Source: Geomicrobium halophilum (lineage in GTDB: Bacteria; Bacillota; Bacilli; Bacillales; Marinococcaceae). Taken from it: a stretch of 64,000 nucleotides of DNA. Shown here piece by piece: positions 9,377 to 51,339 of the stretch. The stretch lies in NCBI RefSeq assembly GCF_014207655.1, contig NZ_JACHHJ010000001.1, forward strand, positions 62,001 to 126,000, given 5' to 3'. Numbering within the stretch: the first letter of the stretch is position 1; the number at the start of each line of letters is the position of its first letter. A model generated the notes under the pieces. The model ran no database searches. It was not told the DNA's origin and saw only the letters and a list, made by a program, of their open reading frames with translations. The translations under genes and the position numbers were made by a program.

Positions 9377-10055
9377 CTTCCCCTAGTGTATACTAACGCT
9401 AAGAGGAAGAAAGAACGTTGGTATTTTGCGGTTTCCATCTCCTATAGTTAGGTAAAGGGACCCTTCTGCTCAAAGTGCAATGGACGTCGATGCCGGCCTA
9501 AACAATGTTGCTGTTCATCAGTAGGAAGGAGGCCGCTTTTCGACGTCGCACATTCGCTTCCTGCCGAAGAAGCATATGCAAAGCGGCTCACTTAAAGAAA
9601 GACGCTGGGCGAAACCTTTACAGTTGCTCCCCTTATCAACTGCAGTAATTGATTGAGAACGTTCATCCTAAAACACCTCAAAGCAGTGGAGGTGCGGAGA
9701 TGTACACAAGAAAAACCGCTGCCGTCATCTCTTTCGCTTTACATTCTACTACTATACGGCTCACTCATGCCATGAGCGGGCTCCCGCCGAAAAAGAGGAA
9801 AGAAGCATCGAATGCAGAAGCTGCCCTTTTGGGACAGCCCCTTGTCAAACCCAATACGTAAAGAGATGAATAAGGCACTCGTGTAAGTTGGTCGTCCCTT
9901 AAACCTTGGACAAGACCTCTTCTTCATTAAAATGGCTAAAAATTTGGTAAAAACACTCGGTCTGCGCTCGTATTTTTACTCCTTGGAGTTTTAAGTTTAG
10001 GCCTTCTCGAATGGTTCGGCTTTTGGTCCTCCTTTTTCAACTCGTACGGATAAAT
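9377..10055. other. Gene-poor stretch with a large inverted repeat
   Basis: About 0.68 kb with no convincing coding frame; the frames present lack ribosome sites and recognisable sequence. The clearest structure is at 9484-9549: GACGTCGA and GGCCT on the left pair with AGGCC and TCGACGTC on the right, giving a long interrupted hairpin. A broken small hydrophobic frame lies at its right end (9932-10053). Nothing else recognisable is seen. Confidence 0.5.
9932..10053 (+). pseudogene. Possible broken small membrane protein
   Basis: ATG 9932 opens as MAKNLVKTLG and then runs out of frame. After a one-base shift the sequence continues as SALVFLLLGVLSLGLLEWFG and ends at TAA 10051-10053, an uninterrupted hydrophobic membrane-like segment. 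No ribosome site precedes the ATG. It may be a frameshifted small membrane protein or chance; no family was recognised. Confidence 0.25.
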
Positions 10056-11038: not shown

Positions 11039-11359
11039 TTGCAACACGTATATGAGCAAAAGGAACTAATGGATGCCATCGAAGAACATGGGGAAATCCT
11101 CTTGTTCAAAAACAGTACAACCTGCCCGATTAGTGCGAATGCGTTTGATGAGTTAAAGGCATTTGCAACCGAGCATCCAGAAGTTCCTGTTTATTATTTA
11201 AATGTACAAGATGAAAGGCCACTGTCTGAATATGTTGCAACCTTTTGGGATGTAAAACATGAAAGCCCTCAAGCATTGCTTTTAACTTCTTCGGAGGCAA
11301 AATGGCACACTTCACATAGTAAAATTACTGAACAAGTACTGGAGAAAGCTTTAGTATAA
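11039..11359 (+). CDS. ytxJ: YtxJ, bacillithiol-system thioredoxin-fold protein
   Basis: A 106-residue thioredoxin-fold protein starting at TTG 11039 after a GGGAGG-rich site. It has one conserved cysteine in the redox position (FKNSTTCPISANAF), where a thioredoxin would have CxxC, which marks the monothiol YtxJ/bacilliredoxin group. Such proteins are thought to act on bacillithiol-mixed disulfides; this is family knowledge and not shown here. Third gene of the ytxGHJ stress operon; a terminator follows. Confidence 0.85.
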   Translation: MQHVYEQKELMDAIEEHGEILLFKNSTTCPISANAFDELKAFATEHPEVPVYYLNVQDERPLSEYVATFWDVKHESPQALLLTSSEAKWHTSHSKITEQVLEKALV

Positions 11360-11364
11360 TGTTC

Positions 11365-11406
11365 AAAAAGCCATCACGATGTTTTAAGCGGCGTGATGGC
11401 TTTTTA
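11365..11406 (+). terminator. Intrinsic terminator after ytxJ
   Basis: AAAAAGCCATCACG (11365-11378) pairs with CGTGATGGCTTTTT (11392-11405), a perfect 14-bp stem with T tract. Confidence 0.9.
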
Positions 11407-14037: not shown

Positions 14038-14078
14038 TGATGATACCTCCATAAATACTGAAGAATATATTAATAGAT

Positions 14079-14268
14079 GATGTTCAAAAAAGAATCCAAA
14101 ATGACTCAAGCTCTCAGCTTGTTACGTCTTAACGTATAAACTCCTCACGGTGGAAAAGAGGTTTTTTTCCGAGGAGTCATAGAAGCCGACGTCGTTGCCA
14201 CAGGATGCAGCGGTATTCGTCGGCTTTCACGGGGTTATGCCTGTTGTTTTCCGGGTTTTTTGAACAAC
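14079..14268. repeat. MITE-like inverted-repeat element, copy 1
   Basis: The left end reads GATGTTCAAAAAAG (from 14079). The right end reads TTTTTTGAACAAC (to 14268), whose complement is GTTGTTCAAAAAA. The element is about 190 bp and carries no coding frame, but has an internal palindrome near 14135-14180. It directly follows the start of the decayed glutamate dehydrogenase. Its ends match the other copies at 20293, 29664 and 39150. Confidence 0.65.
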
Positions 14269-14269
14269 C

Positions 14270-14536
14270 TTAATAAAATTTTCGAATAAAAGCTGATAAC
14301 TGGATTCCTGCCATCATTGTTATTAAATAAATTGCAAAGTAAAGCCAGGTTTGCCAAGTGTCAAAGCTTAAATGATTAATCATGACAATGAATAAGAAAA
14401 ATAAAACGGTCACAATGATCCCCGCTACCCATTTGTAAGGTTTCGTTTGCATTAGATTGCCGATAATAAAACCAAGCATGAGAGTAATGATGGGATTAAA
14501 AAAAGCTATTAAAACGAATACGTCGATGTTGATCAC
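14270..14536 (-). CDS. Small multi-span membrane protein, unknown
   Basis: An 88-residue reading starting at GTG 14536; the frame is open further upstream (to 14698) but that part does not look like protein. No clear ribosome site matches the GTG, so the start is uncertain. Three hydrophobic helices are visible: VFVLIAFFNPIITLMLGFII, then KWVAGIIVTVLFFLFIVMI, then WLYFAIYLITMMAGIQL, separated by short polar loops with TKPYK and HLSFDTW. I do not recognise a named family. The hydrophobic pattern and intact frame argue that it is real. It is transcribed leftward, opposite to ccpA, and abuts the repeat at 14079-14268. Confidence 0.5.
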   Translation of the reverse strand: MINIDVFVLIAFFNPIITLMLGFIIGNLMQTKPYKWVAGIIVTVLFFLFIVMINHLSFDTWQTWLYFAIYLITMMAGIQLSAFIRKFY

Positions 14537-20141: not shown

Positions 20142-20292
20142 TCAGTATACATGAAGAGCTGGGGAAACGGGAAACGTTTTTTGTCACGAAAGAGTGAAGA
20201 AAGGGAATTGAATGAAATTCTTATACGTCTTGTGTTGGTAAGAACGTTGAGGAATCACTGAGATTTTTTCAGCGAAAGATAGGATATAAGAG

Positions 20293-20456
20293 GACGTTCA
20301 AAAAGTCCGGGAAAAATAGCCGTCGTACCCCTTCGTCGTTTGCTTCTGTGCTCATCACGTATGAAACCATATCCTCGAAAAAGAAACGATTCATTCTCAT
20401 ACATAGTGGGAGCCGCGAAGCGTCTTGAGTGTTTTTGTGCCCACGTTTTGAACATC
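20293..20456. repeat. MITE-like inverted-repeat element, copy 2
   Basis: The left end reads GACGTTCAAAAAGTCCGG and the right end GTTTTGAACATC; both sit inside TA-rich flanks (TATAAGAG on the left, TTTCTATA on the right). The element is about 164 bp. Internal block 20350-20385 recurs almost exactly at 50590-50620. Confidence 0.7.
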
Positions 20457-20500
20457 TTTCTATAAATGGAAAATTTAATAAATTATCTAACCATAATAAA

Positions 20501-22464: not shown

Positions 22465-22692
22465 TTCATAAATATACAACGTTGAAGGTAACGAAGTAGC
22501 TATTTTGACTAGGCTCAGAGAATCGACGGTTGCTGCGAGTCGATCCGGTCATCAGCGGCGAATTACATTACTGGAGTTTTCTGCATGATAAACGGACGTA
22601 TACTCTGCGTTAAAGAGCCGAGTGGAAGACTTATGTCTTCAACAAGGGTGGTACCGCGACAAAGCTCGTCCCTTACGGGGCGAGCTTTTTTG
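22465..22692 (+). ncRNA. T-box leader (tyrosine) upstream of tyrosyl-tRNA synthetase
   Basis: The T-box core AAGGGTGGTACCGCG (about 22644-22658) precedes an intrinsic terminator, AGCTCGTCCC pairing with GGGGCGAGCT then TTTTTT (22663-22690). Upstream is a long structured Stem I with a GAATTACATTAC stretch (22560-22571) offering UAC triplets, the tyrosine specifier. Uncharged tRNA-Tyr would stabilise the antiterminator and switch on the downstream gene. Confidence 0.93.
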
Positions 22693-27022: not shown

Positions 27023-27298
27023 ATTCTTTCCCTCCAGTTTCATGTGTTCGAAGAACTGCATGAAACGGCAAAAAACCTTCTTCCAAGGGAATGAAGGCAG
27101 AAAAATAGCGCATGCGGAAAAAAGCGTTATTGTGCTGTCCTGGTTCATGGCAGAATCCAGGCTGCTTAGCTTTTTTTGCATAGTTCACTACAATTGGTGC
27201 CGTTCTTAAAGATACAGCCCTTGTGACATAAGTATAGCACAAAGTGAAAAAACAGAAAACGATGGAGGATGGCCATCACTTTCTGTTCCTAATCCCAT

Positions 27299-29544: not shown

Positions 29545-29663
29545 AATCTGACCTCCAATATTATCACATTCATACGTCTTTCCATGTTATCATAGAATAG
29601 ATGACAGTTTTTCTTATGAACATAAAGGATTTTGCTTTTTTATGACGAAAAAAATTATAGTGC

Positions 29664-29858
29664 GTGTTCAAAAAGAAGGACAAAAAGAGCCGAGAAGTTT
29701 TAGAAAAGGTTAGCTTGTCGCCAAGGTGGCGAGTCTAGACACCCCGCAAGCTGACGAAGAAATTCGACGGCTCTAGAATCCCCTCCCTTGAATTATCCTC
29801 GCACGAAGAAAAAGTGACGTTCTTTTTCGAGGAAGTTTTCCTGGACTTTTTGAACATC
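29664..29858. repeat. MITE-like inverted-repeat element, copy 3
   Basis: The left end reads TGTTCAAAAAG after TATAGTGCG. The right end reads CTTTTTGAACATCCTCTTATA, the complement of the family left end TATAAGAGGATGTTCAAAAAG. The element is about 195 bp, noncoding, between hisK and ezrA start regions. Confidence 0.7.
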
Positions 29859-29898
29859 CTCTTATACATGAAATGCACGGATAACTGGAGTGAAAGAA

Positions 29899-39070: not shown

Positions 39071-39149
39071 CTTGCAAATTCCTTTCTGTATATGAGGAAG
39101 TGACTAGGTATAAGTTTATCCGTATTGTGACGTGACTATACTGATGAAG

Positions 39150-39296
39150 AATGTTCAAAAAGCCGGGGAAATATAGCCTTGTAATAAAGGATTGAAATCC
39201 GGGGAGTCCTGTAATAAACGCCGGCTCTGCCGTAAATTCGTGCAGCATGTATTGAGGGGACAACCTTTCTCTTTTAGTCCGTCTTTTTGAACACTA
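39150..39296. repeat. MITE-like inverted-repeat element, copy 4
   Basis: The left end reads ATGTTCAAAAAGCCGGGG. The right end is GTCTTTTTGAACACT, with complement AGTGTTCAAAAAGAC, next to ACTATA on the outer side. The element is about 147 bp, noncoding, between the DUF421 gene and ytfI. Confidence 0.7.
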
Positions 39297-39323
39297 CTAT
39301 AATAAGTTAAAGCGGAGATGCTT

Positions 39324-43260: not shown

Positions 43261-44493
43261 GTGAGTAAAAACACTCACCGGTATGATATGAATAAACAAA
43301 AGGTTGTATTAGCCTATTCTGGTGGATTGGATACATCCGTTGCTGTGCGTTGGTTGATCGATCAAGGGTATGAAGTCGTTGCTGTTGGATTGGATGTTGG
43401 TGAAGGAAAAGATTTGGAGACGATCAAACAAAAAGCTCTAGACGTTGGGGCGAGCCAGTCATATACGATTGATGCAAAGAAGGAGTTCGCTGATGAGTTT
43501 GTCTTGCCGGCTCTTCAGGCGCAAGCCATGTATGAACAGAAGTACCCCCTTGTCTCAGCACTTTCCCGTCCTCTGATTGCGAAAAAGCTCGTTGAAATCG
43601 CTCAGCAGACTGGAGCAGGTACGATCGCTCATGGCTGTACTGGAAAGGGAAATGATCAAGTCCGTTTTGAAGTTTCTATCCAAGCCTTAAATCCGGAGTT
43701 TGATGTGATAGCACCGGTACGTGAGTGGGGCTGGTCGCGTGACGAGGAAATTGAATATGCAAAGCAGCATAACATCCCGGTCCCAGTAGATCTCGACAAC
43801 CCGTATTCTATAGATCAAAACCTTTGGGGACGCAGTAATGAGTGTGGGGTTCTTGAAGACCCTTGGGCTACACCGCCTGAAGGTGCCTATGATTTGACTA
43901 CCGCTCTCGAAGAAACGCCTGACACACCAGATGTTGTGGAAATCGACTTTGTAGAGGGAAAACCTGTTGCTGTCGATGGAGTGGGTTATGATCTTGACCA
44001 GTTAATTCTTTATTTGAATGAAAAAGCAGGAAAGCATGGCATTGGACGTATTGATCATGTGGAAAACCGTCTCGTAGGCATTAAATCGCGTGAAGTTTAC
44101 GAATGTCCAGGTGCAATGACGTTGCTTACAGCGCATAAAGAATTGGAAGATTTAACGCTGCCTCGCGAGATGGCCCATTTTAAACCGGTCGTATCCAAGG
44201 AACTAACAGAACTTATTTATAAAGGACTCTGGTTCTCATCTTTAAGACCAGCACTTGAGGCATTTTTGAAAGAGTCACAGAAAAGCGTAACCGGAAAGGT
44301 TCGTGTAAAACTGTTTAAAGGGCATGCGATTGTTGAAGGTCGTACATCTCCTTATTCTCTCTATGATGAGAAGCTGGCTACGTATACGACGGAAGATGAA
44401 TTTGATCACAGCGCAGCCGTCGGTTTTACCCAATTATGGGGACTTCCAACGAAAGTGCACAGTAAAGTGAACAAGAATGGTGTAGAAGTATGA
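43261..44493 (+). CDS. argG: Argininosuccinate synthase
   Basis: A 410-residue enzyme that joins citrulline and aspartate using ATP. The P-loop is [18 protein letters not shown]; other blocks are [33 protein letters not shown] and [19 protein letters not shown] 43261 lies after AGGAGGTG and gives nine residues before the usual start; the ATG at 43288 has no ribosome site. The first 18 bases form an inverted repeat (GTGAGT/ACTCAC). Overlaps argH as ATGA and is preceded by an Arg box. Confidence 0.95.
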
Positions 44494-45872
44494 CAAAGCT
44501 ATGGGGCGGTCGATTTACAAAAGAGGCAGAAGCGTGGGTGGATGAATTCGGTGCGTCGATTTCATTCGATCAAAAGCTTGTTGCCTATGACATTAAGGGG
44601 AGCATGGCACATGCGGCCATGCTTCGTTCTTGCAATATTATCAGTGAAGAAGAAGGGCAAAAGATTCATGACGGTCTCGTTAGGTTAGAAAAGAAAGCGA
44701 AAAATGGAGAACTCGATTTTGATGTAAAATATGAAGATATTCATATGAACATTGAAAAGTTATTAACCGAAGAAATTGGGGAGGTTGCCGGCAAACTTCA
44801 TACCGCACGCAGTCGAAATGACCAAGTGGCTACGGATATGCACTTATATATGCGTGAAGAGACGAAGGAAATCATTTCAATCATTCGTGATCTACAGCGT
44901 GTGATTGTGAGCCGTGCCGAGGAGCATGTGGAGACGATAATCCCTGGTTACACCCATTTGCAACGAGCGCAGCCGGTTTCGATGGGTCATCATTTACTCG
45001 CCTATGACGCAATGCTTGACCGTGATGCGGACAGACTCACGGATAGCTTAAAAAGGATCAATATTTCTCCGCTTGGGGCCGGTGCGCTCGCGGGGACGAC
45101 GTTTTCGATCGATCGTCGTCAAACGGCCGAAGGTCTTGGGTTTGACGGCATCTATGAAAACAGTTTAGATGCCGTCAGTGATCGTGATTATGTAATTGAA
45201 TTTTTAAGTGTCGCCTCGACGATTATGATGCATTTATCGCGTTTAGCAGAAGAATTGATTCTTTGGTCCAGTCATGAGTTTGGTTTTATTGAACTCGATG
45301 ACACGTTCGCAACAGGCAGCAGTATTATGCCGCAGAAGAAAAATCCTGATATGGCTGAGTTGGTCAGGGGAAAAACGGGTCGTGTATATGGAAGTCTTTT
45401 TAGTTTATTAACTACTTTAAAGAGCTTACCTCTGGCTTATAATAAAGATATGCAGGAGGATAAAGAGGGCGTTTTTGACGCGGTTATAACTGTAAAAGGT
45501 TCTTTAAAGATTTTTACTGGAATGATAGATTCTATGATTATTCACGAAGACGTCACAGAGAGGTCAATTGCATCGGATTTCTCCAATGCAACTGAAATCG
45601 CTGATTATCTTGCCGCCAAAGGGATGCCTTTCAGAGAAGCCCATGAAATCGTCGGTAAACTTGTTCTCTATTGCATAGACAATGACATTGTGCTCACCCA
45701 ATGCCCGTTCTCAAAATTTGAAGAATCTAGTTCTTTATTTGAAAAAGACATTTACCAGACACTGGATCCCCGTGAAGGGGTGGCTCGCCGCAATAGCGAG
45801 GGGGGCACAGGGTTTACACAAGTTGGGAAGGCAGTTCAAAAACGCAAAAAACAATTGGATATGTTGAATTAA
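44490..45872 (+). CDS. argH: Argininosuccinate lyase
   Basis: A 460-residue member of the fumarase/aspartase superfamily that releases arginine and fumarate. Motifs: [60 protein letters not shown] and the superfamily signature [20 protein letters not shown]. Length is normal. The ATG shares bases with the argG stop, so the two arginine genes are translationally coupled. Confidence 0.96.
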
Positions 45873-46016
45873 GATGCGAAAAACGGTCGCTCTGCCAAAC
45901 CGCTACATCGTGTAACACCGCGTTACTAGCGCTTTATGCGCCTTGGGTCTATGCTTACGTATTTCCATCTTCTGCTCTTTTTGTCCTCTTTTAAACACCC
46001 TCTCAAGGACAGCCGT

Positions 46017-50552: not shown

Positions 50553-50640
50553 TTGAGCTTATATTAAGAGGATGTCCAAAAAGTCCGTGTGCTCTCACGT
50601 ATGAAACCATATCCTCGAAAAAGATCCCCCTTCGAATACG
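50553..50640. repeat. Partial copy of the MITE-like element
   Basis: TATATTAAGAGGATGTCCAA begins a family left end. The block at 50588-50622 (CACGTATGAAACCATATCC then TCGAAAAAG) matches the interior of the copy at 20293-20456. No right inverted end is found, so the copy is truncated. Confidence 0.65.
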
Positions 50641-50650
50641 CTCTAAAAAA

Positions 50651-50711: not shown

Positions 50712-51017
50712 TTATTGTCCAGACTGATTTTGAGCCTGTTGTAGTTGTTGGCTTGCTTGCTGCAACTGTTGCTGGGCTTTTTGGATTTGTGGTTGTTGAG
50801 TGGGCTGAGCATTGGTTCCTGCTTGCTGCAATTGTTGCTCAGCCTGTTGCAGCTGCTGTTGAGCCTGCTGCATAGATTGAGGATCTGCCTGTTGAACGGC
50901 TTGTTGAACCGTTTGATCAGCTTGTTGAGCAGCCTGTTGAGCTTGTTGTAATGCTTGATCTTGCTGTTGTTGCGGGTTTTGTTGCTGTTGTGGATTTTGC
51001 TGATTTTGCTGAGGCAT
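50712..51017 (-). CDS. Glutamine-rich low-complexity protein
   Basis: A 101-residue frame from ATG 51017 (an in-frame ATG at 51038 is also possible; AAGGAG lies between). By count 53 of 101 residues are Gln, the rest mostly Ala, Leu, Pro, Asn and Asp. After an Asn/Pro/Gln head it turns into heptad-like units such as MQQAQQQLQQAEQQLQQA, consistent with an amphipathic helix or coiled coil. Only one Lys is present. No family is recognised; a spore-storage or coat-associated role is conceivable by composition only. It has its own terminator, so the gene is probably real. Confidence 0.7.
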   Translation of the reverse strand: MPQQNQQNPQQQQNPQQQQDQALQQAQQAAQQADQTVQQAVQQADPQSMQQAQQQLQQAEQQLQQAGTNAQPTQQPQIQKAQQQLQQASQQLQQAQNQSGQ

Positions 51018-51339
51018 AAGTGACCTAGCTCCTTTCATATAGATCCCGCCTCTGTTTCCTCTTTTATGCCCACCTTGAGAGAAGACAGAAGCTGTATGAG
51101 TAAATTACCAAAGTTAAATGGAAGTTATTCATTCCAACGTTTTTTCTAAGACCTTTATTATATGGATGTCGTTCATTGTGACATTAACTTGGGTGAAGAC
51201 TGCAGATCTTTTGTTAACCTGCTATTCCATTAATTGGAGAAAAAGTAAAAAAAGAAGGGTTTTTAGGATGCAACTAGAATGATATAGGGGAGATGAAATG
51301 GAAAAAGGCGTGGGAAACGAAGGTGACTCCAGGGTTAAG

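Follow-up and report, generated by a model that had tools for sequence, protein, structure and literature searches.

The 64,000 nucleotides of Geomicrobium halophilum DNA analysed here (referred to as the window) carry four short elements with similar inverted ends, scattered between genes. This raises the question whether they are mobile elements and, if so, how they insert, what may move them, and what their interior represents. The original prediction described them as a dispersed, non-coding, MITE-like family with insertion at TA sites.

Elements in the window

All four elements were recovered, the spans first assigned to them being 2-4 bases too short at each end. A covariance model based on 42 copies (5 from the G. 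halophilum genome, 4 from the related genome G061, 33 from named genomes, and none from the window) finds all four as well as three weaker remnants. The borders of elements A to D listed below were refined by us from their 5-bp flanks; E-values are those of the covariance model.

14076..14270, minus strand: element A, 195 bp, flanked by TAATA at 14071-14075 and 14271-14275 (E 2e-4)
20290..20460, plus strand: element B, 171 bp, flanked by TATAA at 20285-20289 and 20461-20465 (E 3e-11)
29660..29861, minus strand: element C, 202 bp, flanked by TTATA at 29655-29659 and 29862-29866 (E 4e-14); the best preserved of the four
39147..39298, plus strand: element D, 152 bp, duplication gone (E 1e-7)
45828..46002, plus strand: degenerate full-length copy (E 2e-4), overlapping the 3' end of the ORF at 44490-45872
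9940..10047, plus strand: probable short degenerate copy (E 1e-3)
50568..50643, plus strand: probable truncated copy (weak, E 0.04) with intact left end (C1:112567), partial interior, and no right end

The degenerate copy at 45828-46002 contains a decayed hairpin (CTACATCGTGTA) that resembles by eye the hairpin of the Bacillaceae-1 RNA (see below); the Rfam scan gave no match at this site. With 2 mismatches allowed, 29 occurrences of ATGTTCAAAAAG were counted in the window, compared to a mean of 13.5 and a maximum of 22 in 100 shuffles. An exact occurrence at 11359-11405 (L002) was rejected as a candidate, being the start of a short terminator-like hairpin.

The claim that the elements always lie between genes holds for the four window elements when compared to the ORF list, element A touching one ORF end by a single base. 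It does not hold genome-wide. A looser caller, for which a flank match formed part of the selection, yielded 68 elements for the window together with the fetched stretches of the same genome, and 24 of these overlap a mechanically defined ORF (at least 80 aa) by more than 20 bp.

Three further features of the window were recorded. The truncated copy adjoins a 108-aa ORF (50712-51038, minus strand) with a CTGTTG-like repeat stretch, by eye glutamine-rich on the minus strand. A T-box leader (RF00230, E 3.5e-24) is found at 22473-22676 on the plus strand, and a pan motif (RF01749, E 1.5e-4) at 27131-27221 on the minus strand.

Termini and copy number

The family is bounded by GAGG[A/T]TGTTCAAAAAG on the left and CTTTTTGAACACGCAC on the right; the terminal inverted repeats are imperfect (GAGG[A/T]TGTTCAAAAAG / GTGCGTGTTCAAAAAG). 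Searches of the whole G. halophilum genome, each compared to the reversed pattern, bear out a dispersed family. For the left end AGAGGATGTTCAAAAAGTC, with at most 3 mismatches, there are 120 occurrences versus 3 for the control; for the core, with at most 1 mismatch, 249 versus 57; and for the right end AGTGCGTGTTCAAAAAG, 171 (a number that includes some left ends) versus 22. Among the matches listed, 54 of 100 left ends face a listed right end at a distance of 80-452 bp. The genome is estimated to carry roughly 70-120 copies, and the copies that were measured have a length of 65-635 bp. Judging by titles, a full-text literature search with the end sequences retrieved no paper on bacterial repeats.

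Target-site duplication

Identical 5-bp flanks of the form TWNWA were found for 110 of the 176 elements in four sets. For this count, borders were set from the ends alone, and 200 random re-pairings of flanks served as control. Identical flanks were seen in 18 of 44 elements from G. halophilum (permuted mean 2.6, maximum 8), in 33 of 42 from G061 (mean 3.8, maximum 10), in 8 of 13 from the related genome G035 (mean 1.5, maximum 5), and in 51 of 77 from named genomes (mean 5.4, maximum 16). For the named loci, a less strict count put this at 65 of 102. Among the 110 perfect duplications, the first base is T in 107 and the last base is A in 108, while positions 2 and 4 are nearly always A or T. 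Perfect duplications are absent in 26 of the 44 G. halophilum elements; within the window they are present at elements A, B, and C.

When borders are shifted by 1-2 bases, the flank match drops from 0.87 to 0.35-0.45. Insertion at TA sites, as had been proposed, must therefore be replaced by duplication of a 5-bp TWNWA word. The elements are short and non-coding and have terminal inverted repeats, many copies, and a target duplication of fixed length, which are features expected of a MITE.

Filled and empty sites in viral contigs

A copy of 215-216 bp adjoins a gene in a group of viral contigs. Using this neighbouring gene, 40 loci were collected, one of which was dropped at 27% identity. Of the 39 compared, 6 are filled and 33 lack the element. 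The filled site reads CTTCTATTA, then the element (GAGGTTG...TGCAC), then TTTTAAGAGTGGTTCC, its flanks differing at one base (TATTA/TTTTA). The closest empty sites are, for example, CTTCTATTAAAGGTGGTTCC (L471) and CTTCTATTAAGGGTTGGTTCC (L463); other empty sites are more diverged. Insertion is the simpler reading, and precise excision would give the same picture. On chromosomes of the G. halophilum lineage, no such pairing of filled and empty sites was seen. It had been considered from the outset that the ends might belong to ordinary terminators, and these empty sites speak against that. Together with the copy number and the 5-bp duplications, the filled and empty contigs uphold the view of a dispersed, non-coding, inverted-repeat family that is mobile.

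Distribution across genomes

The left-end pattern is present in 18 of 81 genomes (G. halophilum and relatives). Counts are high in G. halophilum (70), G035 (72), and G061 (124), the other positive genomes having 1-7. In named genomes, at least 111 stretches carry a left end; the genera among the matches listed include Oceanobacillus, Lentibacillus, Evansella, Paenibacillus, Brevibacillus, Sporolactobacillus, Priestia, Fictibacillus, and Cytobacillus. The sizes of 102 named-genome elements cluster near 154, 216, 276, and 335 bp. Among viral contigs, there was a single exact match of 19 bases; a shorter pattern occurred in 19 stretches, 6 of which are paired with a close right-end match. In plasmid records, clear matches came from a single Paenibacillus, at 15 places on one replicon and 2 on another, the remaining matches being short or poor.

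Search for a mobiliser

No transposase-bearing copy with the family ends was found among the listed ends and transposases described below, in agreement with the original prediction, which had left the mobiliser unnamed. Neither the listed ends of G. halophilum nor those of the named loci and G061 enclose a coding element with family ends. Transposases of the families PF13751, PF01609, and PF01526 were inspected in three to six genomes, and none of those listed is flanked by both family ends. At 12 named loci, and in a set of 30 G061 loci, the left ends that have no partner show no transposase by eye. The few end pairs more than 700 bp apart proved, in the parts of the stretches that were read, to be ends of different short elements or ends without a near partner. 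These searches yielded no autonomous copy and hence no enzyme that can be assigned to the ends. G. halophilum has one weak, broken match to PF01609 and none to PF13751, so its copies may be fossils.

The G. halophilum genome does contain a broken Tn3-type transposase within a few hundred bases of a family member (L263 2356-2508; G000:C2:321485-321887; L523, L526). The elements might be miniature Tn3-family derivatives (TIME-like), moved by a Tn3-type transposase. Duplications of 5 bp in AT-rich targets are typical of Tn3, and TIMEs, which derive from Tn3, share with our elements both such a duplication and the lack of coding capacity. In addition, a Tn3 transposase or a piece of one is present in all three high-copy genomes and absent from two low-copy genomes. 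The matches are broken in G. halophilum, five in number in G061 (three with an open frame), and in G035 a single weak one below the cut-off. Copy number appears to correlate strongly with Tn3 pieces, but this involves five genomes and we do not take it as evidence beyond this alternative.

It is the ends which disagree. Tn3-type elements end in a 38-bp repeat which begins with GGGG and contains TAAG. The family ends begin with GAGG and GTGCG, and such a repeat is absent from them. Of the three intact Tn3 elements in G061, two have GGGG ends unlike those of the family, by which the family also differs from TIMEs, and the third shows no family-like ends. We therefore consider a Tn3 origin unlikely.

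A conserved hairpin scaffold

A conserved scaffold, folded and with exchangeable modules, makes up the interior of the elements; this goes beyond the differing interiors with shared blocks that had been described initially. Elements of the class of about 155 bp can be aligned across Bacillales genera and G. halophilum. Their consensus fold is one long hairpin from end to end, with conserved internal loops. Compensatory changes on both sides occur at 21 of 34 pairs. Pairing is retained in 96.0% of the alignment cells, versus 85.2% after shuffling and 28-52% with slid partners; as these very sequences also served to derive the structure, some of the advantage over the slid versions is to be expected. 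Cells changed on both sides number 166, compared to 46.6 in shuffles. Arm-to-arm copying within a palindrome could also be a source of such double changes, but the conserved unpaired loops argue against it as their only cause.

Modules and the Bacillaceae-1 RNA

Larger copies carry extra blocks of about 60 bp, arranged as hairpin-stem-hairpin, whose loops read AGGAY on one strand and RTCCT on the opposite one. An Rfam scan of 8 loci identified this block as Bacillaceae-1 RNA (RF01690). Scores exceed the gathering threshold, with 19 matches in 20 G061 loci and 20 matches in 18 named loci.

In the G061 loci, which had been chosen by element ends, 18 of the 19 matches lie inside bounded elements. 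The 18 named loci (144 kb) were taken from the 111 stretches, mostly for copies exceeding the scaffold length; 17 of their 20 matches are inside elements, with 12 loci having a match inside an element and 6 having none. At two loci (L101, L149) the flanks match at just 1-2 of 5 bases. The G035 sample was ranked by Rfam rather than selected by element ends: of the best 20 of at least 53 RF01690 matches, 16 lie inside elements and 4 outside bounded ones, two of the latter being close to contig ends.

Modules in opposite orientations were observed directly in the sequences. As the two ends cross-match each other, the automatically assigned element strand is unreliable and we have drawn no orientation count from it. 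The module structure, drawn by eye from the alignment, shows changes on both sides at 14 of 16 pairs (43 of 51 modules, 40 of them distinct), and 94.3% of the cells pair, versus 71.0% in shuffles.

The window, its elements included, has zero RF01690 matches in the Rfam scan, and the G. halophilum genome has one in all, so the link to this RNA rests on the relatives. RF01690 matches occur in 50 of the 81 genomes, with counts of up to at least 54, and also in genomes with few or no family ends (e.g., G005, G014, G019, G060). In 40 fetched stretches, the module was seen by eye in other dispersed repeats with other ends (AAGAAAAGCGCAAGCGCC...; GTTGATTGTAACGGAAGGCGGCGACTCC...).

These other-ended repeats with RF01690 modules are found at L402-L440 (genomes G060, G019, G005, G014, G024, G004, G037, G020, G002, and G012). 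In genome G070, an RF01690 match is located directly upstream of the 16S rRNA start (L441 501-567), and two further matches of equal score may belong to other rRNA operons. A larger module (CTCGAGGTCATAAGC...GCTTATGCTTGTC) is common to elements of G061 and Cytobacillus depressus (L319, L336, L337, L169); the Rfam scan named no family for it.

Bacillaceae-1 has been an orphan RNA motif since 2010 and is listed as a probable RNA of Bacillaceae in the accessible part of its description (PMC2864571). Eight structures are annotated in Bacillus subtilis, according to the accessible text of PMC8208703. The accessible portions of the literature naming Bacillaceae-1, RF01690, or Bacillus repeats draw no link to transposons. 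A 2022 paper in Gene reportedly sets rRNA-linked copies of the motif apart from intergenic ones. Our module of about 60 bp matches the Rfam model above its cut-off. It differs from the motif as described in being a transposon building block that occurs in either orientation, and also in other repeats and upstream of a 16S rRNA. As one module is the Bacillaceae-1 motif, a good part of its dispersed copies in G035 are transposon pieces rather than separate RNA genes, and the other samples indicate the same elsewhere.

RNA or DNA level

Selection on a one-strand RNA should tolerate G.U more readily than A.C. Across 42 sequences and the 26 scaffold pairs that lie outside the terminal helix, we counted 14 G.T versus 15 A.C; for the module, 7 versus 17. 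The share of G.T among standard pairs is 1.4% in the scaffold and 1.2% in the module, compared to 6.2% in 57 distinct tRNAs from the collected loci, for which the tool seems to mark standard pairs exclusively, so that its A.C count is no control. As G.T is not commoner than A.C in the stems, a one-strand RNA role is disfavoured. The symmetry does not fit one-strand RNA selection in most copies; arm copying and neutral decay of copies are compatible with it, as is a fold maintained at the DNA level or on both strands.

This bears on the possibility that the elements are a mobile regulatory RNA family, a CsrA-binding sponge whose transcript is the main product. Their modules have AGGAY hairpin loops, and the reverse complement of Bacillaceae-1 has been proposed to sequester CsrA, with a published match to the CsrA-binding motif (accessible part of PMC4333381). 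Of six genomes tested, five have one CsrA match each, but there is none in G. halophilum with its many copies, so that CsrA cannot be needed to keep copies there, though it may play a role in other genomes. Further points against a sponge are the symmetry of G.T and A.C, the modules being oriented either way, and the 155-bp class having no module. We regard it as improbable that a transcript is the main product.

Nature of the elements

We consider it likely that the elements are one non-autonomous family of Bacillales DNA transposons, consisting of a hairpin scaffold and modules that include Bacillaceae-1, and mobilised in trans. A transposase acting in trans would recognise the element ends, as suggested by the duplications and by the sites lacking an element. 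Insertion would proceed via a 5-bp staggered cut in an AT-rich TWNWA target; the cut is deduced from the duplication, which is observed. Hairpin modules of about 60 bp and more are built into the conserved scaffold of about 155 bp. The fold would probably be maintained at the DNA level or on both strands alike.

It is very unlikely that the elements are ordinary bidirectional terminators or non-mobile REP-like repeats. They do fold well (element A as DNA, z = -5.3) and lie mostly in gaps between genes. However, they have defined ends with 5-bp duplications, viral contigs occur both with and without a copy, and the same scaffold is found across many genera. Their gene contexts (68 elements: 36 tandem, 17 divergent, 15 convergent) follow the background (217 gaps: 123 tandem, 52 divergent, 42 convergent). 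A MITE of a TA-targeting IS630/Tc1-type element, as guessed originally, is hardly credible, since the targets are AT-rich with T first and A last but the duplicated word has 5 bp instead of the 2-bp TA and its match is lost upon shifting the borders.

The non-autonomous transposon family thus preferred resembles prokaryotic MITEs, which according to the accessible part of PMC10969869 are usually <500 bp and have inverted ends, target duplications that fade with age, AT-rich intergenic targets, and a stable fold. The difference lies in the interior, a conserved scaffold with exchangeable structured modules that is recognisable across many genera. The bcr1 repeat of the Bacillus cereus group is likewise a short, folded, dispersed repeat with mobile features; it is reported as confined to that group.

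More tentatively, it is conceivable that Bacillales share a pool of structured modules, Bacillaceae-1 among them, which are mixed within unrelated families of miniature transposons. Their hairpins, single-stranded or cruciform and from either strand, might serve to recruit a factor of the host or of transposition; the copy preceding the 16S rRNA might be the source or a domesticated descendant.

Modules of miniature transposons would account for many of the copies of this orphan Rfam family that are scattered between genes, and annotation and testing of Bacillaceae-1 would change accordingly. With a MITE family that has a conserved, folded, and modular body, the question whether such a fold acts as RNA or as DNA becomes testable.
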